64,000 bases of DNA from Candidatus Nanopelagicus hibericus (GTDB taxonomy: Bacteria > Actinomycetota > Actinomycetes > Nanopelagicales > Nanopelagicaceae). Made by a program: the position numbers and the translations under genes. The notes below the pieces were generated by a model. It was given only the letters and a program-made list of their open reading frames with translations. It made no database searches and was not told the origin of the DNA. Below, piece by piece: positions 2,121-12,485 of this stretch. Positions within the stretch are counted from its first letter, which is position 1. Each line of letters opens with the position of its first letter. Location of the stretch: assembly GCF_002288005.1 (NCBI RefSeq), contig NZ_CP016771.1, positions 992,001-1,056,000 on the forward strand, read 5' to 3'.

Positions 2121-5039
2121 TTATCTATTTTGTGCAGAAATTAATGCTGCAATTGCTGCTTTAACACGTGCTCTTGCTTTGTCTTCAGCTGCGCCATCTA
2201 ATCGTTTTTGTGCTGCTTCAAGATCAGCATAAGCAGATTGCAATGATGCAATTGCTGATCTAATTGCCTGACTTGTGCCAGGCCCGCTGTTTATCGGTGC
2301 GTTTTGATCATTGGTCGATTCTGTTGTGCCAGAGTCGCCACCAAATACTTGATCTAAAGCACCTTGCAAGGTCTCACTAAACCCAATTTGATCACCAAAT
2401 GAAACTAAAACTTTTTGTAGCAATGGATAAGCGGCGGTATTACCAGTCGCCCTTACATACACCGGTTGCACATATAACAAGCCTTTTCCAACTGGAAGTG
2501 TTAAAAGGTTTCCAAGCACTACATCAGCGCCACCTTGGCGAAGAAGTGACAAAGAAGTAGCAACCTCTGGCTTGGCCTCAAAATTGGATGCTACCTGTGA
2601 TGGGCCTGCAACGTTTGTTGATCTTGGTAGTTGTAAGACAGTAATTTTTCCGTAATCATCACCAGCATCTGAGTTAACAACGGCAACTGCAGTTAAGTTT
2701 TCACGTCCACCCCGCGGAACAAATGGAGTGTATAGAGAAAATGTTGGTTTACTCTGACCAGGAATTTGCATTGTTAAGTAGTAAGGTGGTTGAACTCCTG
2801 AGTTAGCACCAAAACTTGATGGATCAAGTGGAACTCTCCAGAAGTCCTGTCCACCATAAAATGCATCAGCGGTCTTAACGTGATAAGCGCTCAGAATGTC
2901 GCGCTGCACCTTAAATAAGTCCTCTGGATATCGAATATGTGAGAGCAAACCAGCTGATATCTCACTCTTAGGTTTTAAAGTACCTGGAAAAGCTTTGCTC
3001 CATGCCGCTAATACTGGATCGTTTTCATCCCATTTGTATAGTGAAACCGTTCCATCATAAGCATCCACCGTAGCTTTCACTGAGTTTCGAATGTAATTAA
3101 TGTTTTGATTATTCAATGAAAATGCGTTATTTGTGGAGGTCAGGGCATCACCGGTATTTGCCAAGTTCACAATTCGAGAGTTTGGATAACCAGCGCTAGT
3201 AGTAAACCCATCAATTATCCAAAGAATCTTGCCATCGATAATCGCTGGGTATGGATCTGCATCCAAAGTCAGCCAAGGTGCCACTTTTGCAACGCGTTCC
3301 CTTGGATTTCTATTAAAAAGTATCTTTGACTCTGAATTAATTAAATTTGATAACAGGATTCTTTGTTCCTGGTAATTAATTGCAAACAAAAGCCGAGAGA
3401 ATAATGAACCCATCGGCACTCCACCTTTGCCGGTGTAGGTGTAATTCTTTTGCCCATTTGGCGAATTATCATCTGGATAATCAAGCTCAACTGGATTATC
3501 GGTAGCTGGCCCACCAATAATGGAATAATTTGGAACGTTCTCACCAAAGTAAACACGAGGCTCGAACTCACCTAATCCTTTAGTTGGTGGAATATTCTCG
3601 ATAACAAATGATGGTTTTCCATCTGCATCAACAGTGTTTCCGTAAGCACCGACCATTCCAAACCCGTGGGTGTAAACCAAGTGATCATTGATCCAATTTC
3701 GAGATGGATTTCCTGCAATATTTAGCTCTCGAATAGAAACTACAACATCACGCTCTTTACCATCAATTACATATCGATCAATATCAAGTGAATCTGAAAA
3801 TGTGTAGTAAGGCTTAATTTGTTGCAATTGTCTAAATGTTGCTGAAAGAACATTTGGATCCATCAATCTTATATTGGCTATTGTTGCCGCATCATTTGCC
3901 AGCTGGCCTGCTGAGGTGGTCACAGTTGCTTGATAATCGTTAACCTCCACATTGGTCAAGCCAAAAGCATCTCTGGTGGCTTCAATATTGCGTTGAATGA
4001 AAGGTGCTTCCTTGCTTGACTCTGATGGCTTGACTTGAAATTGCTGAATTGCTGCTGGATAAACTCCAGCAATTAAAACTGAAGCAATTACCATCAAAGC
4101 AACTCCAGCAGTTGGTAACAGCCAAGATCTTCTTACAATGTTTGCAAAAAATAACAATGAACAGATCACCGCAATCGCCGACAAAATTGATTTGGCCGGC
4201 AATAGCGCATTGACATCTGAATAGGTGAGACCAGTTATCAATCTTCCTTCTTTAAGCGTTAAGGCAAATCGGTCAAAGTAATAGGCAACCGCCTTAAGGA
4301 GAACTAATAAGCCAAGTAGTATTGAAAGCTGAACTCTGGCAGCAACAGTTGTGCGCTCCTCCTTTACTTGTGGCCTAATTCCGCCGTAGATGTAATGCAC
4401 GGCAGCGGATGCAATAATCGCCAGCACGATCGTTGATATGGCCCAACCAATCAGGCCTTGATACATTGGCAATTTAAAGGCGAAAAATGAAATATCCAAA
4501 CCAAATTGTGGATCTACTTTTCCAAATTCAGTTGAGTTTCTAAAAAGTAACCATTGCTCCCAAAATCTAGAGCCCGAAGAGCCAGCGAAATAAAAAATTA
4601 CTAGAAATATTCCGATGCCAGCTAGGCGGCGAATTGGCTCAAGTTGAGCCCGGTATCTCTCTAAGTTATCTGCCTCAACTGAAACCGGCACATAAATTGG
4701 TCTTCTGCGAAATGCAAAATAAATATTAGTCGAGATAATTGCTGCTGTAATTAAACCAAAGGCTAAAAACAAATAGATTTTAGTAAATAGAGTAGTTTGC
4801 CAGACATTTACATAATCAACTGAGCGATACCAAAGAAAGTCAGCATAAAACCCACTGGAGGAAATCAAAACCGTACTAAGAACAAATAAAACGATTACAG
4901 TGATTGTTAGCGGACTGATTCGCCTGCGACCACCACCTCGATTGGCAAACGGATTTGGAAAGTTGCCACCAAAGCCGCTGCCACCAAATGGATTATTGCT
5001 TCGGTTAAATCCGCCGCCGCCAAAACCCGAATTACTCAT
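2121..5039 (-). CDS. UPF0182 family integral membrane protein
   Basis: This is a large UPF0182 (COG1615) protein of about 972 residues; its function is unknown. A glycine/asparagine-rich N-terminus (FGGGGF, NPFGGSGF) leads into about seven hydrophobic helices in the first 310 residues. A long, probably extracytoplasmic, soluble region follows, with repeated YxYxGKGG and NPRERVAKVAPWLTLD-type segments, ending in an acidic linker and a charged C-terminal helix rich in Ala, Lys and Arg. The ATG at 5039 is preferred over a TTG six bases upstream; neither has a strong ribosome site. The next gene upstream is the PDZ/Lon protease, as in M. tuberculosis Rv3193c-Rv3194c, so the two probably form an operon at the cell surface. 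Confidence 0.9.
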   Translation of the reverse strand: MSNSGFGGGGFNRSNNPFGGSGFGGNFPNPFANRGGGRRRISPLTITVIVLFVLSTVLISSSGFYADFLWYRSVDYVNVWQTTLFTKIYLFLAFGLITAAIISTNIYFAFRRRPIYVPVSVEADNLERYRAQLEPIRRLAGIGIFLVIFYFAGSSGSRFWEQWLLFRNSTEFGKVDPQFGLDISFFAFKLPMYQGLIGWAISTIVLAIIASAAVHYIYGGIRPQVKEERTTVAARVQLSILLGLLVLLKAVAYYFDRFALTLKEGRLITGLTYSDVNALLPAKSILSAIAVICSLLFFANIVRRSWLLPTAGVALMVIASVLIAGVYPAAIQQFQVKPSESSKEAPFIQRNIEATRDAFGLTNVEVNDYQATVTTSAGQLANDAATIANIRLMDPNVLSATFRQLQQIKPYYTFSDSLDIDRYVIDGKERDVVVSIRELNIAGNPSRNWINDHLVYTHGFGMVGAYGNTVDADGKPSFVIENIPPTKGLGEFEPRVYFGENVPNYSIIGGPATDNPVELDYPDDNSPNGQKNYTYTGKGGVPMGSLFSRLLFAINYQEQRILLSNLINSESKILFNRNPRERVAKVAPWLTLDADPYPAIIDGKILWIIDGFTTSAGYPNSRIVNLANTGDALTSTNNAFSLNNQNINYIRNSVKATVDAYDGTVSLYKWDENDPVLAAWSKAFPGTLKPKSEISAGLLSHIRYPEDLFKVQRDILSAYHVKTADAFYGGQDFWRVPLDPSSFGANSGVQPPYYLTMQIPGQSKPTFSLYTPFVPRGGRENLTAVAVVNSDAGDDYGKITVLQLPRSTNVAGPSQVASNFEAKPEVATSLSLLRQGGADVVLGNLLTLPVGKGLLYVQPVYVRATGNTAAYPLLQKVLVSFGDQIGFSETLQGALDQVFGGDSGTTESTNDQNAPINSGPGTSQAIRSAIASLQSAYADLEAAQKRLDGAAEDKARARVKAAIAALISAQNR

Positions 5040-5058
5040 GCGCAAATCTTATCTACTC

Positions 5059-6129
5059 TTAGGTAAAGCTCTGACAACTGGGAAACTTGGCGTTATCAGG
5101 CAGTTCTAAGAGTGAAATCGCCTCGGCGAGTGTGGCGACCGGCACAATCTTCATTACCTTTCCTGAGTTACCTGATTTTTGCTTGGCTAAGGCTTTTAGA
5201 TTTTTGATATCCATACAATTTTCAGTTGGGGTCAGGAATATTTCTACACCATCTGCCTGTGCACCGATTATCTTCTCTGCAATCCCACCAATCGGTCCAA
5301 CTCTGCCATCTGTAGTAATTGTGCCGGTGCCAGCGATATTACGGGAGCGAACCAAATTTTCTGGAGTTAACTTTTCCACCACACCAAGTGCAAAAATTAA
5401 TCCACCGCTAGGCCCGCCAGTTTCTTCAAGTTTTATCTTGACATCAAATGGAAAATCAAATTGCTCTTCAATATTTATCCCGATAAATGCTGAATTATCC
5501 TCTCGGGCTGATAATTTAATCGACTTAGTTAACACACCTAATCCAGCCCTAATTACTTTAATCGTTACCAAATCACCTGGCTTTTTATCACCTAGATACG
5601 CAATTAATTCCGAAGAGCTTTTGACTGTCCGGTCATCAATGCTCAGGAGCTGATCCGATACTTCAATAGCTTTATATGCATTTGAACTCTTATTTATGTC
5701 GAGAACAACAATTTTTGACGCACTCTTATACCCAAGATAAGAAAGAGCCGCAGCGGTGGCATTTATTTGCGAGCCACTCATTTCAGCTGCGCCCTCTTCT
5801 ACCGCCTGCTCTGCTGTTTCTCCCTCGGGATAAACTTCAGAACGGGGAATGACTGCGCGATCTTTATCTACCCAGCCATACAAAATATCAAAGCCAGTTA
5901 TATAGGAATCTGGATCGGTGACCATTACTGATGTGACTGATAATTTTCCACTGGTGGGATAGACCTTAGTACCAGTAATGGTTATCGCCGAACCAAGAAT
6001 ATTTTGTGGATCCCCCGGTGAGAGAATTACAAATGGTGCAGGTAAAAAAAATGCTGCCAGCATCAGCAGGGTGACCAATACTTTGGTTGGTGTAAGCAGG
6101 CGACCTTTTACAGGCATGATTGATCTCAT
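5059..6129 (-). CDS. PDZ and Lon-type protease domain protein (YlbL family)
   Basis: This is a membrane-anchored serine protease of about 356 residues. An N-terminal hydrophobic segment (LVTLLMLAAFFLPAPFVILSPG) tethers it. A PDZ domain follows around residues 150-215 (AIEVSDQLLSIDDRTV), then a Lon-type catalytic domain whose Ser lies in GGPSGG and Lys in GGIAEKI, the Ser-Lys dyad. Unlike Lon there is no AAA+ domain. The family (Rv3194c, B. subtilis YlbL) is thought to act in surface protein quality control; substrates here are unknown. A second in-frame ATG at 6117 is a possible start. It sits 19 bases upstream of the UPF0182 gene in the same direction. Confidence 0.9.
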   Translation of the reverse strand: MRSIMPVKGRLLTPTKVLVTLLMLAAFFLPAPFVILSPGDPQNILGSAITITGTKVYPTSGKLSVTSVMVTDPDSYITGFDILYGWVDKDRAVIPRSEVYPEGETAEQAVEEGAAEMSGSQINATAAALSYLGYKSASKIVVLDINKSSNAYKAIEVSDQLLSIDDRTVKSSSELIAYLGDKKPGDLVTIKVIRAGLGVLTKSIKLSAREDNSAFIGINIEEQFDFPFDVKIKLEETGGPSGGLIFALGVVEKLTPENLVRSRNIAGTGTITTDGRVGPIGGIAEKIIGAQADGVEIFLTPTENCMDIKNLKALAKQKSGNSGKVMKIVPVATLAEAISLLELPDNAKFPSCQSFT

Positions 6130-6149
6130 TTTAATTAATTTCTCGAAGC

Positions 6150-6326
6150 TTATTTTTTATGTCTAAAACTATTTTGAAATTTACTAAACTTATTGACCGA
6201 ACGATTAGTCTGATTGTCATACTTAGATTTGTATTTGGTTACCCACACCCCATAGATGGTGGCACCCAAAACAGCTGTGATCGGAATTACCCACCAGATC
6301 AGGGCCACCGCTGAAGTTGAACTCAT
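6150..6326 (-). CDS. small single-pass membrane protein, hypothetical
   Basis: This 58-residue protein has one hydrophobic helix near its N-terminus (ALIWWVIPITAVLGATIYGVWV) followed by a strongly basic, Lys/Asn-rich tail (TKYKSKYDNQTNRSVNKFSK) that should lie in the cytoplasm. The frame is open farther upstream, to 6446, but that would overlap the divergent neighbour. The ATG at 6326 has a TACTAT hexamer exactly 6 bases upstream, the leaderless layout seen across this window, so I chose it. I do not recognise a family. It precedes the PDZ/Lon protease and may be co-transcribed with it. Confidence 0.6.
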   Translation of the reverse strand: MSSTSAVALIWWVIPITAVLGATIYGVWVTKYKSKYDNQTNRSVNKFSKFQNSFRHKK

Positions 6327-6338
6327 GAGGTAATAGTA
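6327..6338 (-). promoter_or_regulatory. leaderless promoter -10 for the 58-aa membrane protein
   Basis: On the minus strand TACTAT (6333-6338) is followed by 6 bases and then the ATG at 6326. It fits the TANNNT-N6-start pattern repeated in this window. Confidence 0.45.
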
Positions 6339-6424
6339 ATCAGCTGGGAAGAAAAAAGGTGGCATTATTGTTCTATAGGAATCGCTGGTCTTTCTATCAA
6401 GTGAATTGAGGGAGTTGTTTGTAA

Positions 6425-7741
6425 ATGAGTTTTGGCTTTCTTCCAAATGAAGGGCAACCTGATTTTGACGCGCTGCTTAAAAAATTCTCAGAAATGGGAA
6501 TCGACTCTGGTGTATTAGCTGGTGCGAAATCCTTTATCGAGGGCATGGGTGGCAATAAATCTGGTGAACAAAACTTAATAACCGTTGCTAACCTGCGAGA
6601 GATATCTAGAAAAATTATTACCGCTAAAGGTGATCTTCCGGTGGGCAGTGTTGACCTGCAGCAACTCTCCCAATCCTTAACTATCGCCAACACTTGGCTG
6701 GATACCGAAATCTTGTTCCCAGCAGCGACTGTTTCCAATCAAAGTGCATGGGCAAAGCGAGATTGGTTAGATGAATCTGTTAATGGTTGGCAGCAGCTAT
6801 TTGAGCCACTAGCAGTTGGCATGGCCGATGCCTTAGGAAATGTGATTGCTAGCTCCAACAACACACTGCCGATTGAGTTCATGGGATCAGGGGAGCAAAA
6901 CCCGCAGCAGCAGGAGGCTATGAAATTAATGCTGGCTCGAATTTTGCGAGGATTTATGGGCACCTTAATTGCCACTCAACTTGGACAAGGCATTGGCACA
7001 CTTGCCAACACCATCACTGGTGCTAATGATGTGGCGATTCCACTGCTAAAAGCAGACTCTGGATCCCACTTGATTCCCCAAAACATCACTGAGTGGGCAG
7101 ATGGTTTAGGAATAGATCTAGAGCAAATTCGAATTTACTTATCCTTGCGCGAGGCTGCTGCGGCCAGGTTGTTTGCCAATACCCCATGGCTTGAAAACTA
7201 TATTAAGGATTTAATCATTGCTTACGGTGAAGGAATCACTATTGATGTTGACTCCATTACCAGACAAGCGGAGGAGGCGATGGCTGGCGGTGAAATAGAT
7301 ATTAATAATCCCCAATCAATTAACATCGCATTAAATGCCGGTTTATTTACACCACAACAAACACCTGCGCAAGAGCTTGCCTTAACTAGATTGGAAATGA
7401 CACTTGCATTAATTGAAGGCTGGATTGATCATGTTATATCCGCTGTTGCTAGTGAAAAAATTCCAGCCTTTAACGCTTTGATTGAAAACTCTCGTCGTCG
7501 TCGAGCTACAAACTCACCAATGCAACAAATATTTGCAAACCTGTTGGGAGTTGAGGTCTCGCCAAGAAAAATGCGTGAGGCATCTGCTTTCTGGAGTGAG
7601 GTTAAAAAGCTACGGGGAGCAGATGGTCGCGATAAGTGCTGGGAGGATCCAGCATTTTTACCTATGCCAAATGATCTATCTGATGTAAAAAACTTCTTGG
7701 ATAGTGTCACCGTGCCAGATGACCTATCTGGCTTGATCTAA
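6425..7741 (+). CDS. zincin-2 (DUF2342) family protein
   Basis: This 438-residue protein belongs to the actinobacterial DUF2342/zincin-2 family (Rv3195-like, often labelled zinc-dependent metalloprotease or putative hydrolase). Typical family segments are visible: the N-terminal PDFDALLKKF, the central LFANTPWLENYIKDLIIAYGEGI, the ALIEGWIDHVISAV helix, and a C-terminal KMREASAFWSEVKKLRGADGRDKCWEDPAFLP. I cannot find a canonical HExxH, so peptidase activity is unproven. A purine-rich ribosome site (GAGGGAG, 6408-6414) lies 10 bases before the ATG. The gene diverges from the small membrane protein and the PDZ/Lon protease. Confidence 0.85.
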   Translation: MSFGFLPNEGQPDFDALLKKFSEMGIDSGVLAGAKSFIEGMGGNKSGEQNLITVANLREISRKIITAKGDLPVGSVDLQQLSQSLTIANTWLDTEILFPAATVSNQSAWAKRDWLDESVNGWQQLFEPLAVGMADALGNVIASSNNTLPIEFMGSGEQNPQQQEAMKLMLARILRGFMGTLIATQLGQGIGTLANTITGANDVAIPLLKADSGSHLIPQNITEWADGLGIDLEQIRIYLSLREAAAARLFANTPWLENYIKDLIIAYGEGITIDVDSITRQAEEAMAGGEIDINNPQSINIALNAGLFTPQQTPAQELALTRLEMTLALIEGWIDHVISAVASEKIPAFNALIENSRRRRATNSPMQQIFANLLGVEVSPRKMREASAFWSEVKKLRGADGRDKCWEDPAFLPMPNDLSDVKNFLDSVTVPDDLSGLI

Positions 7742-7743
7742 AT

Positions 7744-7831
7744 CCACAAAAGTAAAAGCGAAATCCCCGGGCGCACAATTTCTTATCTGCCTTCCCCTTG
7801 CAGATATGAAACGGTTATCCGGGGACTTCGT
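7744..7831 (-). ncRNA. candidate small RNA, long hairpin with own promoter and terminator
   Basis: The minus strand encodes one long hairpin. The outer stem pairs 7819-7830 with 7759-7770 (12 pairs including one G-U), an 8/7-base internal loop follows, then an inner stem of 11 pairs with one mismatch (7800-7811 with 7779-7790), closed by a 9-base purine loop AAGGGGAAG. The only outer-stem mismatch on the plus strand becomes a G-U pair on the minus strand, which favours the minus strand as the RNA. The 3' side runs into CTTTTACTTTTG, a plausible intrinsic terminator. Predicted length is about 85 nt. It does not match SRP RNA, tmRNA, RNase P RNA or 6S RNA as I know them. Confidence 0.5.
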
Positions 7832-7866
7832 AGCGTAAAGATATGGGAATAAAAGTTGGGAATCAA
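7832..7866 (-). promoter_or_regulatory. promoter of the candidate small RNA
   Basis: Read on the minus strand, TTGATT (7861-7866) is separated by exactly 17 bases from TATCTT (7838-7843). The predicted transcription start, 7 bases farther on at 7831, falls at the first bases of the long hairpin. Confidence 0.45.
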
Positions 7867-8061
7867 CTTAAAAGGGTGTTTTAAAAACTTATTTTAAAAT
7901 ATTTTTTTAGCACTCGCGGTGCACCTGTGATAAAAAATAAAGTATCTAATCCCCTTCAGCATGGCATACGGCAAATAAGTATCAAGGTTGCGTAAAATTT
8001 AACCGCACTCTGTGGATTAACCTGTGGAGATAAGCACAATTATGGTGGATAAGAAGAGGTA
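7867..8061. other. AT-rich intergenic region with GTGGATAA-like repeats
   Basis: No credible gene is seen here. The left half is AT-rich with two TTTTAAAA palindromes. The right half and the following start codon carry four related units, TGTGGATTAA (8011), TGTGGAGATAA (8023), GGTGGATAAG (8044) and GGTGGATAAC (8064), spaced 12, 21 and 20 bases apart. They resemble the DnaA-box core on one strand. A six-codon reading frame (ATG at 8042, MVDKKR, stop at 8060-8062) ends in a TAATG overlap with the next gene and starts with the same 11 bases as that gene. Confidence 0.4.
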
Positions 8062-8694
8062 ATGGTGGATAACTTTGAGCAAGAAATCCTCTTTTCGGAG
8101 ATTTTTCCGCAGGTTGCTCAAATCGCTAAGCGTAGAAAAAGTGATGATGCTAAATTGCCACAGAATTTGCCCGCATATCGGGTAATTCGAAAGGAGCGCA
8201 GGCGCCGCGGCATCAGCGCCTTTCGTCAGGGTGGAGTGATTGAGATTCACATCCCAGCACGGATGAGCAGGCGGCAAGAGATCGAAATAATTCCAGAGAT
8301 GATTGCCATGGTACTAAGGCGAGAGGCACGCGAGCGCAAAACCGACCTACAACTGATGCAGATCGGAGTGGAGCAACTTGCCACCTACCTACCGGAGTTT
8401 GATATTTATCCAGCAAGTATTAATTGGCGCAGTATGAATGAACGATGGGGCTCTTGCACCACAGTAGATCGCACAATTCGAATCTCTGATCGATTAATTG
8501 GTGCACCAAGTTATGTTTTAAATTACATAATTTTCCATGAGCTAATTCATTTGAAGGTCATCGCTCATGATCAGGAGTTCAACAACTATTTAAGTAGATT
8601 CACCGATAAAGATAAAGCGGAGGCATTTTTGGAAGGGTTTGAACTTGGCTGCCAAAGTGGTGCTCCTGCGCTACTGCCGGCGGCAAATAACTAG
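8062..8694 (+). CDS. YgjP-like M48-type metallohydrolase
   Basis: This 210-residue protein belongs to the YgjP/SprT-like (DUF45, WLM) family of zinc metallohydrolases. The zinc site is clear: HELIH (about residues 156-160, after NYIIFHE) with a downstream H in AHDQEF, and the upstream family motif WRSMNERWGSCTT. The basic region KERRRRGISAFRQGG near residue 55 is also usual for the family. The substrate is not established. The ATG at 8062 follows AGAAGAGG very closely and overlaps the stop of a tiny upstream frame, so translation may be re-initiated. The next genes, two small zinc-ribbon proteins, follow after about 50 bases. Confidence 0.85.
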   Translation: MVDNFEQEILFSEIFPQVAQIAKRRKSDDAKLPQNLPAYRVIRKERRRRGISAFRQGGVIEIHIPARMSRRQEIEIIPEMIAMVLRREARERKTDLQLMQIGVEQLATYLPEFDIYPASINWRSMNERWGSCTTVDRTIRISDRLIGAPSYVLNYIIFHELIHLKVIAHDQEFNNYLSRFTDKDKAEAFLEGFELGCQSGAPALLPAANN

Positions 8695-8730
8695 TTTTAC
8701 CCCTTTTTTCTCAGTTATTACTTAATATTT

Positions 8731-8742
8731 TAGATTTTAGGC
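8731..8742 (+). promoter_or_regulatory. leaderless promoter -10 for the 41-aa CxxC protein
   Basis: TAGATT (8731-8736) plus 6 bases precedes the GTG at 8743. It may also be the promoter of the overlapping DUF5679 gene. Confidence 0.4.
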
Positions 8743-8868
8743 GTGGAAAACCCCAGTTGCAGCAGTTGCGGGGGGTATGGTGAAGCCATTCGTACTCACA
8801 TGCAGGAACTAACCTACATGCTCCCAAGAGTGCGGCGGATGGAGGAAGAAAATGGCAGAAGAGTATAA
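8743..8868 (+). CDS. candidate 41-residue CxxC protein
   Basis: This short frame, starting at GTG, encodes a protein with an N-terminal CSSCGG zinc-binding-like motif and a charged C-terminal helix (PRVRRMEEENGRR). A TAGATT box lies 6 bases before the GTG, the leaderless pattern used by other genes here, and the frame contains the strong ribosome site of the following DUF5679 gene, which it overlaps by 17 bases. That arrangement would couple the two translations. I do not recognise the family, and a chance frame remains possible. Confidence 0.45.
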   Translation: MENPSCSSCGGYGEAIRTHMQELTYMLPRVRRMEEENGRRV

Positions 8869-9010
8869 AGGTGAGGCTTACTGCGTTAAGTGCAAAGAGA
8901 AGCGCTCCTTTGAAGGACATGTAAAGGTCTCTGATTCCGGTCGCCGTATGGCACAGGGAATCTGCCCAGTTTGTGGCACAAAGGTAAATCGTATTCTTGG
9001 TAAGGCTTAA
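8852..9010 (+). CDS. DUF5679 small zinc-ribbon protein
   Basis: This 52-residue protein matches the actinobacterial DUF5679 family. It has two CxxC pairs (C11-C14 in YCVKCKEKR and C38-C41 in ICPVCGTKVNR) that should bind one zinc, with the conserved GRRMAQG between them. Function is unknown; the fold suggests nucleic-acid or protein binding. A strong GGAGGA ribosome site sits 6 bases before the ATG. In M. tuberculosis a homologue lies in the same neighbourhood, between the zincin-2 protein and WhiB7. An intrinsic terminator follows directly. Confidence 0.9.
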   Translation: MAEEYKGEAYCVKCKEKRSFEGHVKVSDSGRRMAQGICPVCGTKVNRILGKA

Positions 9011-9033
9011 TAAATAAGCAGGTAACCAAATGT

Positions 9034-9070
9034 AAAAGCGGGGGTGGTTAGATACCATCCCCGCTTTTTT
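9034..9070 (+). terminator. intrinsic terminator after DUF5679
   Basis: A stem AAAGCGGGGxTGG pairs with CCATCCCCGCTTT around a short loop and is followed by a run of six T. It ends the short plus-strand unit and faces the WhiB7-like gene coming from the other side. Confidence 0.85.
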
Positions 9071-9111
9071 ATGTTAACCCTTTCTAGTTAACAGTTGTTA
9101 TTTGAAAAAAT

Positions 9112-9582
9112 TTAACTTGCCTGCGCCACCTTTGCTGGTCTGCCTGGTGTTCGCTTGCTTTGAATTATCTGACCTTCATCAAATAACTCACCTCCCCATA
9201 CGCCACATGGCTCAGCTCTTGAGATCGCCCCAGCTAAGCACTTAGCTTTAACGGGGCAACCTGCGCACAACACCTTTGCTTGGGCGATTACCGGCGCGCT
9301 ATCGCTGAAAAAGAGCTCTGGATCAGCGCCGTGGCAGGGAAGGGTAATCACCGCTACTTGCTGCTTGATCTCTGGGGCAAAAGGATTATCAGCGCGCTTA
9401 TATCCACCTGTCGCCGGCTTGTTCTTCTCTGCACTGTAATTGGTTGCAGAGTTTGTGGCGTAATCGGTATAGGAGATAACTGGGACATCCTCATAAGCCC
9501 AGGTGACATCACCTAATCCAATTTTGGCGGTCGGGCCTTGTGCCCAACCGGGGATAAGTAGTTCGCTGAAGAGAACGGTCAT
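9112..9582 (-). CDS. whiB7: WhiB7-like transcriptional regulator
   Basis: This WhiB-family iron-sulfur regulator has about 156 residues. Four cluster ligands are present: C83 in LPCHGADPELFF, then C106, C109 and C115 in CAGCPVKAKC. The turn GVWGGE (127-132) contacts the sigma factor in the family. The C-terminal TPGRPAK is a reduced version of the RGRPRK AT-hook that defines WhiB7, which drives resistance and stress genes. Its place beside uvrD2 and nudC agrees with WhiB7. Unusually, about 75 residues precede the first cysteine, far more than in typical WhiB7. The ATG at 9582 is chosen for its AAGGTGAG ribosome site; an ATG nine codons upstream is possible. Confidence 0.82.
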   Translation of the reverse strand: MTVLFSELLIPGWAQGPTAKIGLGDVTWAYEDVPVISYTDYATNSATNYSAEKNKPATGGYKRADNPFAPEIKQQVAVITLPCHGADPELFFSDSAPVIAQAKVLCAGCPVKAKCLAGAISRAEPCGVWGGELFDEGQIIQSKRTPGRPAKVAQAS

Positions 9583-9626
9583 CGTTCTCACCTTTCCTTT
9601 CGGTTGCATTGCGTTGGTTTACTGCT

Positions 9627-9640
9627 TTGCCATTTGGCAA
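9627..9640. repeat. inverted repeat TTGCCA-TT-TGGCAA upstream of whiB7
   Basis: A perfect 6-bp inverted repeat lies 45-58 bases upstream of the WhiB7-like start codon. It could be an operator or a weak hairpin. On the plus strand it is followed by TTTTTT, so it could also act as a minor terminator. Confidence 0.35.
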
Positions 9641-9651
9641 TTTTTTATTTG

Positions 9652-9697
9652 GAGAAAAGAAAAAGGGCCCCCGAATCATTAGATTCGCGGGCCCCTT
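9652..9697 (-). terminator. strong intrinsic terminator after the 59-aa gene
   Basis: On the minus strand AAGGGGCCCGCGAATC pairs with GATTCGGGGGCCCTT around a 4-base loop, and the 3' side continues as TTTTTCTTTTC. It separates the small gene from the WhiB7-like gene and is one of the strongest hairpins in the window. Confidence 0.88.
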
Positions 9698-9713
9698 GGC
9701 TCCTATCTCGACT

Positions 9714-9893
9714 TTAGCCGATATAGCTCCGAGGGGTGCGACCTAATGTGAAGGTATAAAAACCCTTATTAGAGCGCTTATTTGTCCAGTTTGAACGGTA
9801 TGAAGAGGCAGCCGTTACTGGATTAATGGCATACCAATTAGCAGCAACCGCTGAAATAGCAGCTGCTGCCTTAGAGATAAGTACTTTTGCCAT
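9714..9893 (-). CDS. small basic protein of unknown function
   Basis: This 59-residue protein has an Ala-rich N-terminal half (KVLISKAAAAISAVAANWYAI) and a basic, aromatic C-terminal half (SNWTNKRSNKGFYTFTLGR). A TACTCT box lies exactly 6 bases before the ATG at 9893, and a strong terminator follows 17 bases after the stop. It therefore appears to be an independent small transcription unit. It occupies the gap between uvrD2 and whiB7. I do not recognise a family; it is probably a real gene given its promoter and terminator. Confidence 0.6.
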   Translation of the reverse strand: MAKVLISKAAAAISAVAANWYAINPVTAASSYRSNWTNKRSNKGFYTFTLGRTPRSYIG

Positions 9894-9905
9894 TCCCGAA
9901 GAGTA
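9894..9905 (-). promoter_or_regulatory. leaderless promoter -10 for the 59-aa gene
   Basis: TACTCT on the minus strand (9900-9905) plus 6 bases precedes the ATG at 9893. Confidence 0.45.
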
Positions 9906-9930
9906 AAGCATTGGGGGTATGAGGTGCAAC

Positions 9931-11574
9931 TTAATTAAATTGCTCTAGAAATACGCTGGGTTTGCCAGCGTAGGTAATTTGAATCCGCTGCTTTGCCCGG
10001 GTAACCCCAACATAAAATAGCCTGCGCTCCTCATTTAAATCATTACCCATTGGTAGCACTCCATCTGAGACCCCAATTAAAAATAGCTGATTCCACTCCA
10101 AACCTTTTGCTGCATGCAAAGTGGCAAGTGTTACCCCAGGCAGGGTTGGTGGATTATTTTGTTCAGCCCGATCCTCAATCTCACGTAAGAAGGCGCGCAT
10201 GTTGCTACCGCCATTTTCTTGAATACTTTTAGCAAGTCGCAAAAAAGCGGTCACATAATCCGCATCACCAAATGGCCGAAGCACAGCAACTAGATCGGCG
10301 TACCAATCTCCATCCTCAGATGGAAGTACTGAAGCGCTCCTAATCAATCTCATCACATCTCTAACATCTACCCGATCAAAAAATCGCTCACCTGATCTGA
10401 TCTGGCTCAAAACCTGGGCATTATTCAGTGCTGATTTAACCTGATCAAGTTGGGCGTTAGTTCTAGCCAGTATCGCAATCTCAGATGAATCAGCTCCAGC
10501 TGCAATAACTTTTTTCACCTCAGCTACCACATATGCAATCTCATCTCCGCTGGAGTTAAAGCCATTTACTGCAGGCTTTTCACCATGTTCATTAGCAGAT
10601 TGCAACTCATCCCCATGATCACTTACTAAATTGCCTTGTCGTAAAATCTTATTTGCGGTATTTATTATCTCTGGGGTTGATCGATAGCCACGCGATAATC
10701 TAAAAACCTGGGCGTTCGGAAAGCGGTTTTTAAAGTTCAGCAAGAAGTTTGAAGTGGCGCCTGCAAATGAGTAAATAGTCTGGGCTGCATCCCCCACTAC
10801 GCACAGCTCCTGTCGATTCCCTAGCCACAGATTGAGCAATCTTTGTTGCAATGGTGAAACATCTTGGTACTCATCAACGGTGAAATAGCGATACTGATCG
10901 CGCACTCGCTCTCTTACCCCACGATCCTCCTCTAACATGCCCACACAAAGGAGTAGAACATCTTCAAAATCTAATCCCCGCTCCTGCTTTTTTAATGATT
11001 CATACGCTTCATAAACCTGCGCAACCATGGCTAAATTTTCATTTTCACCTTTGTTGTTTGGCAATTTAACTAAACGCTCATTAGCAACTGCCTGCTCGTG
11101 ATAATCCTGCGGTGAAATCTCCAGCACCTTTGCCCATTCAATCTCACCTGATATCTCCCGAAGTGCGTTGGCAGAGGCCGGGATTGCCACATCTGCTCTG
11201 CTGATTGCTTGGCTAATAAAGCCAGATTTTGAGGTGAGTAATGACGGAAATTGTCCGCCAAAGGCGTAGGGCCAAAAATATAAAAGTTGCTTAAGTGCTG
11301 CCGAGTGAAATGTTCTAGCAGTTGCATTTGCAATACCTAATCCGCGCAGCCGTGCACGCATCTCACCAGCAGCTTTGGCAGTAAAGGTAAGTGCCAAAAC
11401 TTTGGTGGGATCGGTGACACCGGAGTTAATTGCATATGCAATTCGGTGGGTGATAACTCTAGTTTTTCCCGTGCCTGCTCCAGCAATTACACAAATAGGG
11501 CCATTAATTGCAGTTACTACCGCTAATTGCTCGGGATCAAGATTAGCCAGGATTACTGAATTATCTACCGCCAT
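9931..11574 (-). CDS. uvrD2: UvrD/Rep-type superfamily 1 DNA helicase, UvrD2-like
   Basis: This 3'-5' DNA helicase/ATPase has 547 residues. Walker A is AGAGTGKT (31-38), motif Ia is ALTFTAKAAGEMRAR, Walker B is VDEYQD, the Q/R region is GDAAQTIYSF, motif V is TLHAAKGLEW and motif VI is YVGVTRAKQRI. It ends soon after motif VI. M. tuberculosis UvrD2 continues with an HRDC and a tetracysteine domain, which are absent here. Synteny (whiB7, uvrD2, nudC) supports the assignment. The start overlaps the nudC stop by 10 bases, so the two are co-transcribed. Expected role: DNA repair or replication-fork processing. Confidence 0.88.
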   Translation of the reverse strand: MAVDNSVILANLDPEQLAVVTAINGPICVIAGAGTGKTRVITHRIAYAINSGVTDPTKVLALTFTAKAAGEMRARLRGLGIANATARTFHSAALKQLLYFWPYAFGGQFPSLLTSKSGFISQAISRADVAIPASANALREISGEIEWAKVLEISPQDYHEQAVANERLVKLPNNKGENENLAMVAQVYEAYESLKKQERGLDFEDVLLLCVGMLEEDRGVRERVRDQYRYFTVDEYQDVSPLQQRLLNLWLGNRQELCVVGDAAQTIYSFAGATSNFLLNFKNRFPNAQVFRLSRGYRSTPEIINTANKILRQGNLVSDHGDELQSANEHGEKPAVNGFNSSGDEIAYVVAEVKKVIAAGADSSEIAILARTNAQLDQVKSALNNAQVLSQIRSGERFFDRVDVRDVMRLIRSASVLPSEDGDWYADLVAVLRPFGDADYVTAFLRLAKSIQENGGSNMRAFLREIEDRAEQNNPPTLPGVTLATLHAAKGLEWNQLFLIGVSDGVLPMGNDLNEERRLFYVGVTRAKQRIQITYAGKPSVFLEQFN

Positions 11575-12485
11575 GACTCTTCGCCAACCAAGTCAATATC
11601 AGCACCCGTCCCATACCAAGCCTTAATCATTTGCCGTGCAACACTAATTTCAAGTGGCAGGATTAAAGATTTATCAGCGATCGCAGCTTTCATATCAGCT
11701 CTGGTAAACCAGCGAATCTCCTCTATCTCATCCCCATCTGGTCTGGCCAATTGCGGAGTATTTGTAATCGCTTCAAAGGCGATCATCAATGATGCCGGAA
11801 ATGGCCATGGTTGTGAGCCTAAGTAATTAATTTCACTCACCTGCACTCCTGCCTCTTCACCAACCTCTCTAACTACACAATTTTCAAATGATTCACCAGG
11901 TTCAACAAACCCAGCAAATGTTGAAAAGCGGTGCTTAGGCCAAACCTTTTGTCGGCCAAGCAAAATGCGATCTTGAATATCTTTTACTAAGACAATAATT
12001 GCGCTATCAGTTCGAGGGTAATGCTCACTTTGATCATCAACGCACTTTCTTACCGCACCACCCAAAACCACATTGGTAGCCCCACCACAGATTGAACATC
12101 TTGGATGTTTCTGGTGCCAATTAGCCAGCCCTTGGGCGTGCACCGTAAGGCCAATATCTCGAGCAGATAAAAAAGCACCAATCTGCCGCAAAGTTTTATA
12201 CTCAAACTGATTATCAACTTCAGCAACTAGGTGGCGAATGAAAAATGCTGTTGAATCTTTAGTACCTAAAAAGTAATCGGTTTGGGATTGATAGGCACCC
12301 AAAGTTGAGCCTTTTAGGAAAAGTACCTGATCATTTATCACTGCAAATTTTTCCTCAAAAAATATCAAAACTTGACCATCGGAAAATGCGCTACTGAGAT
12401 ATTTCTCATCACTTCGCAAATGGGCAGCCCGATCAACTTCAGCTGCTGCTAGCGGGAGTTTTAGCGGTTTAATCGGTGCCATCAC
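11565..12485 (-). CDS. nudC: NAD(H) diphosphatase NudC, Nudix family
   Basis: This enzyme of 306 residues hydrolyses NAD(H) to NMN(H) and AMP and, in other bacteria, decaps NAD-RNA. A zinc-ribbon region has C130, C133 and C148 followed by EHYPRTD. The Nudix box is intact: GFVEPGESFENCVVREVGEEAGV (about 192-214), and the NADH-specific SQPWPFP motif (224-230) follows at the right distance. The GTG at 12485 is preceded by TAGGGT and 6 bases. The next codon is ATG, also possible. The promoter abuts that of the divergent phosphatase gene. Downstream uvrD2 overlaps it. Confidence 0.92.
   Translation of the reverse strand: MMAPIKPLKLPLAAAEVDRAAHLRSDEKYLSSAFSDGQVLIFFEEKFAVINDQVLFLKGSTLGAYQSQTDYFLGTKDSTAFFIRHLVAEVDNQFEYKTLRQIGAFLSARDIGLTVHAQGLANWHQKHPRCSICGGATNVVLGGAVRKCVDDQSEHYPRTDSAIIVLVKDIQDRILLGRQKVWPKHRFSTFAGFVEPGESFENCVVREVGEEAGVQVSEINYLGSQPWPFPASLMIAFEAITNTPQLARPDGDEIEEIRWFTRADMKAAIADKSLILPLEISVARQMIKAWYGTGADIDLVGEESWR

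Follow-up and report, generated by a model that had tools for sequence, protein, structure and literature searches.

A short stretch of DNA between two metallopeptidase genes of Candidatus Nanopelagicus hibericus raises the question of whether it holds the gene of a stand-alone RNA and, if so, which strand is read, whether the RNA belongs to a known family and how it might act. The locus lies in a window of 64,000 nucleotides (positions 992,001 to 1,056,000 of contig NZ_CP016771.1), which is the whole stretch that was analysed; the source genome is complete and 1.22 Mb in size, and coordinates below are those of the window. An earlier note, made from the letters of this stretch, had proposed an independent and novel small RNA (sRNA) gene here, with its own promoter, a long hairpin and a terminator.

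The proposed promoter was read from the minus strand as TTGATT (-35 element, 7861-7866) and, after 17 nt, TATCTT (-10 element of the form TAnnnT, 7838-7843), followed after 7 nt by the outer stem of the hairpin. Comparison bore this reading out. The pattern TTG[ACT]-17/18-TAnnnT was found just before the outer stem in 57/57 diverse homologues, in which the end of the -10 element lies 6-11 nt from the stem, as against 0.75% of shuffled upstream sequences; in high-GC homologues, the -35 element is GTTGAC. In an alignment of 69 sequences of the source family, conservation of the -35 hexamer was 0.93 compared with 0.45 in the DNA further upstream, the -10 element reached 0.99-1.0 at its T, its A and its two final T positions, the spacer reached 0.54, and the mean majority identity of the RNA itself was 0.91. 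Conservation of the hexamers and the RNA, and not of the spacer and the upstream DNA, indicates that the promoter and the RNA were selected together, while their surroundings were not. Generic scans of the locus list neither a promoter nor a terminator, and the promoter was therefore called on its in-register conservation in all 57 diverse homologues.

The spacing from this promoter, together with a covariance model match at 7835-7751 (104 bits), predicts a minus-strand transcript at 7747-7832, which would start at about 7832-7831 and end within the T-rich tail CTTTTACTTTTG (7747-7758). We infer that it is transcribed constitutively. The tail and the outer stem probably form a weak intrinsic terminator, weakest in high-GC homologues; over the 8 nt that follow the stem, the 17 source-family homologues contained 5.4 T on average and the other homologues 2.75. 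A T-rich tail is thus seen in the source family only, and the signal of the proposed terminator is weak. In addition, an A/T-rich palindrome was observed at 7882-7909, upstream of the sRNA promoter and between it and the YgjP-like gene.

Folding supported the minus-strand hairpin. The stem from 7830 to 7759 has a minimum free energy of -37.2 kcal/mol (z -4.9), and none of 200 shuffled sequences folded as well. The plus strand folds well too (z -4.5), so the strand is not fixed by folding alone. To describe the structure, we used an alignment (A3) of 57 diverse homologues, with GC contents of 47-82%, fitted to the covariance model. The outer stem is formed by CGAAGUCCCCGG (7819-7830) and CCGGGGAUUUCG (7759-7770) on the minus strand; as had been claimed, it comprises 12 pairs, and one mismatch on the plus strand (A.C) turns into G.U on the minus strand. 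Compensatory changes were found in 11 of these 12 pairs. The inner part, previously described as a continuous stem of 11 pairs, actually consists of 7 + 5 (+2) pairs with internal loops. Its middle stem pairs GUUUC (7808-7812) with GAAAU (7778-7782) and shows double changes in 5/5 pairs, with 84% of cells paired. The apical stem pairs UAUCUGC (7800-7806) with GCAGAUA (7784-7790) and shows double changes in 6/7 pairs; its top pair is invariant, and the top two pairs are almost so. On the 5' side of the internal loop lies the motif GGAUAAC (7814-7820), whose first two bases are within the outer stem; it is nearly fixed in the source family, kept in many of the other homologues and lost in some high-GC ones. 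One shortened homologue (locus L325, positions 1203-1266, genome G225) has lost the middle stem and retains the outer stem, the apical stem and the AGGGGAA loop.

The hairpin, first proposed from a single sequence, is strongly supported by covariation. Among the 57 homologues, 22 of the 24 pairs showed compensatory double changes and 95% of cells were paired. The covariation score was 0.609, compared with 0.242 for shuffled alignments and at most 0.131 for slid structures, and none of 500 shuffles reached the observed values. A MAFFT alignment of the family, made independently of the model, gave the same picture, with double changes in 11/24 pairs and a score of 0.231 versus 0.123 (0/500 shuffles). 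Moreover, when the pairs were read on the minus strand, G.U cells outnumbered A.C cells by 100 to 25, which shows that the RNA is the minus strand. The covariance model likewise scored 104 bits on the minus strand and 30 bits on the plus strand.

A DNA search, which listed a single match for each genome, detected the element in 182 of the 201 genomes of the source family (acI, Nanopelagicales-type) and in 97 of the 99 near-complete ones; contigs recorded as Candidatus Planktophila and Candidatus Nanopelagicaceae carry the same RNA. A covariance model (R1) built from source-family members only detected the RNA in 99 of the 296 class genomes sampled, from 21 family groups, and the matches were nearly always single. 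Full-sensitivity searches near the YgjP gene added one further family of the class (L312, 57 bits) and, outside the class, family f58 (L320 and L321, 53-55 bits) and a weaker but syntenic match in family f54 (L327, 36.5 bits). No AGGGGAA hairpin was found within 1.5 kb of the YgjP gene in the majority of the remaining class genomes that were inspected (13 families), where the RNA appears to have been lost, moved or become unrecognisable. A phylum-wide search with a second model (R2) scored only 11 candidates per genome and is thus unreliable in high-GC genomes. Outside the class, the exact 15-nt loop pattern occurred at a background level similar to that of the reversed control. Two pattern matches (L103 and L212) were rejected because the structure was absent. 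Separately, several contigs labelled Bifidobacterium breve, Streptomycetaceae, Clavibacter or Candidatus Fonsibacter (L130, L139, L144, L195 and others) carry an acI-type RNA, and the labels or bins of these records are probably wrong.

The most constant part of the RNA is its terminal loop, AAGGGGAAG (7791-7799, minus strand), with the core AGGGGAA. Across the 57 homologues, GCAAGGGGAAGGC was identical in 55. The exceptions keep the core despite a changed loop length or closing pair: in L273, AGGGGAA is closed by an extra C-G pair, and in L312 and L325, the loop lacks one A. Because the loop and its closing pairs are nearly invariant while the middle is variable and can be deleted, the probable working part is the loop as presented on those pairs. 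Judged from these sequences, it is most likely recognised as a structured element, since the closing pairs are invariant and the core survives changes of length.

The reading that we favour, with middling confidence, is that the locus encodes a stand-alone structured sRNA of about 85 nt, read from the minus strand under its own promoter, which acts in trans through a loop that is most likely bound by a protein. The comparison of homologues directly supports the stand-alone unit, the structure, the strand and the fixed loop, while we infer the action in trans through the loop. The RNA lies behind its conserved sigma-70-type promoter and folds into one long hairpin, in which a GC-rich outer stem of 12 pairs and a variable middle lead up to the 7-pair apical stem that presents the almost invariant purine loop. 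Under the favoured scheme, it would remain untranslated and act in trans; a protein would most likely recognise the structure of the loop on its closing G-C and C-G pairs and bind it in a regulatory or housekeeping ribonucleoprotein (RNP), and the stems would serve as a stable handle and terminator. A more specific version, which we hold tentatively, is that this is an undescribed housekeeping-type RNA, ancient in Actinomycetota, whose AGGGGAA loop binds a conserved RNA-binding protein or a ribosomal component, forming an RNP unlike any known from other bacteria.

The alternative that survives best is a trans-acting antisense sRNA, whose loop would be a seed pairing with pyrimidine-rich, UUCCCCU-like stretches of several mRNAs and controlling their translation or stability. 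Conserved seeds typically take the form of an exposed single-stranded loop that does not vary, the actinobacterial 6C RNA has been proposed to work through its C-rich loops in this manner, and a stand-alone gene with its own promoter would suit such a role. Targets were searched as perfect 9-nt matches throughout the genome and as 6-7 nt matches within the window. Only four non-self sites in the genome are perfect 9-nt complements of the loop, and none lies at a gene start, which leaves the earlier suggestion that the loop could pair with C-rich targets unsupported. Complements of 6-7 nt near starts in the window showed no excess, being found for one gene compared with 2.4 for shuffled loops. 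Furthermore, the top two pairs vary no more than the loop does, a constancy that pairing with a target would not require. The rarity of 9-nt complements, the lack of an excess in the window and the invariance of the closing pairs together tip the balance moderately towards a protein as the partner of the loop and away from an antisense seed, and we regard an antisense RNA as a serious possibility on the less probable side.

Could the RNA instead belong to a family that is already known? Rfam searches returned no match in the window and none in a permissive E-value search of the region; among homologous loci, of which 29 distinct ones were scanned in all, there was none above the gathering threshold in 18 and none at permissive E-values in 12 short ones. 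The SRP RNA lies elsewhere, at positions 1,154,776-1,154,872 of the genome (65.2 bits), and 6C RNA was not detected in the 19 genomes of the same genus that were searched, the source genome included. The open-licence literature contained no description of the RNA and no paper with the loop sequence. We therefore regard the RNA as an undescribed sRNA family, and the scans led us to reject an identity with SRP, 6S or 6C RNA. It is unlikely that a known family was missed, such as a diverged SRP, 6S or 6C RNA or a published sRNA outside Rfam; absence from Rfam is no proof of absence from the literature, of which the open-licence papers were searched, but the Rfam, SRP, 6C and literature results speak against it, including the permissive searches of the region and of the 12 loci. 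The novelty proposed in the earlier note was supported, as was its independent sRNA gene, which proved to be conserved, single-copy and covarying, with a conserved promoter.

Like 6C RNA (RF01066), the RNA is a small stand-alone structured RNA of actinobacteria with a conserved homopolymer-like loop; 6C RNA, however, has two hairpins with C-rich loops, whereas here there is one hairpin with a purine loop. The small SRP RNA (4.5S, RF00169) also forms one long hairpin, about 100 nt in length, and is a housekeeping RNA whose invariant, purine-rich apical part is bound by a protein, but the sequences of its loop and internal loop differ. With 6S RNA, the element shares a long hairpin broken by internal loops and its own promoter. 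6S RNA is about twice as long and has a large central bubble, whereas this RNA has a fixed terminal loop and a variable middle that can be missing, as in L325. Decoys of the CsrB/RsmZ type, which titrate a protein, carry GGA-containing hairpin loops as well, but many of them, in contrast to the single loop here. On the coding strand, AAGGGGAAG occurs at only two other sites in the genome, both inside genes, and a CsrB-like decoy was rejected because there is no evident set of matching mRNA sites. Its kind, the bacterial structured sRNA, is thus familiar, but the family is not, and neither, probably, is its mode of action.

The loop had also been noted to resemble a ribosome-binding sequence. 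As a mimic of the Shine-Dalgarno (SD) sequence, it would bind the 3' end of 16S rRNA in a ribosome-associated or ribosome-titrating RNA. Aligned by hand, AAGGGG could form six pairs, one of them G.U, with the anti-SD CUCCUU of the source genome. However, the conserved core is AGGGGAA and not AGGAGG, this loop does not vary although a mimic could change freely from one SD variant to another, and the mature rRNAs contain no longer complement to the loop. Such a role is distinctly improbable.

The gene neighbourhood is itself conserved. The Zincin_2 / TIGR03624 metallopeptidase gene (6425-7741, plus strand; Pfam PF10103, TIGR03624) converges on the RNA gene, and the YgjP-like metallopeptidase gene (8062-8694, plus strand; Pfam PF01863), which is not part of the working unit, lies on its other side. 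In relatives, the RNA adjoins the YgjP-like gene, usually head-to-head, with the Zincin_2 / TIGR03624 gene nearby. In two loci (L116 and L258), the RNA is present but a search of its surroundings showed no adjacent YgjP gene, so this gene is not required for the presence of the RNA. An action in cis, whether as the leader or attenuator of an adjacent gene or as a structured DNA site, is highly improbable. The strong synteny with both genes speaks for it. However, the G.U bias, which a DNA hairpin would not favour as G.T, the strand-specific model scores (104 versus 30 bits) and the promoter, from which transcription would enter the hairpin heading away from YgjP, led us to reject both a plus-strand YgjP leader and a structured DNA element. 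Moreover, the gene downstream of the RNA in the source family (Zincin_2) is on the opposite strand, so that the RNA is not an mRNA leader there, and the RNA persists without a detectable YgjP neighbour. Over 2121-12485, the window encodes UPF0182, PDZ-Lon protease, Zincin_2, YgjP-like, WhiB, UvrD-type helicase and NudC-like proteins, in an order that we take to resemble the region around whiB7/uvrD2 in mycobacteria; this resemblance suggests an old conserved cluster. Two small minus-strand open reading frames of 98 and 115 aa (6150-6446 and 8711-9058) occupy the same positions in most loci of the family and have no Pfam or NCBIfam match.

Few RNA families are known to be conserved across actinobacterial families. 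With its fixed loop, conserved promoter and conserved gene neighbourhood, this one should be readily located in relatives that can be cultured, and the RNA could join Rfam and serve the annotation of many genomes. It is nearly universal in acI, which are the most abundant bacteria of fresh water and have extremely reduced genomes. Its retention in such genomes suggests an important job, and it has the appearance of an undescribed RNA, probably important, with a regulatory or housekeeping role in these bacteria and many of their relatives.
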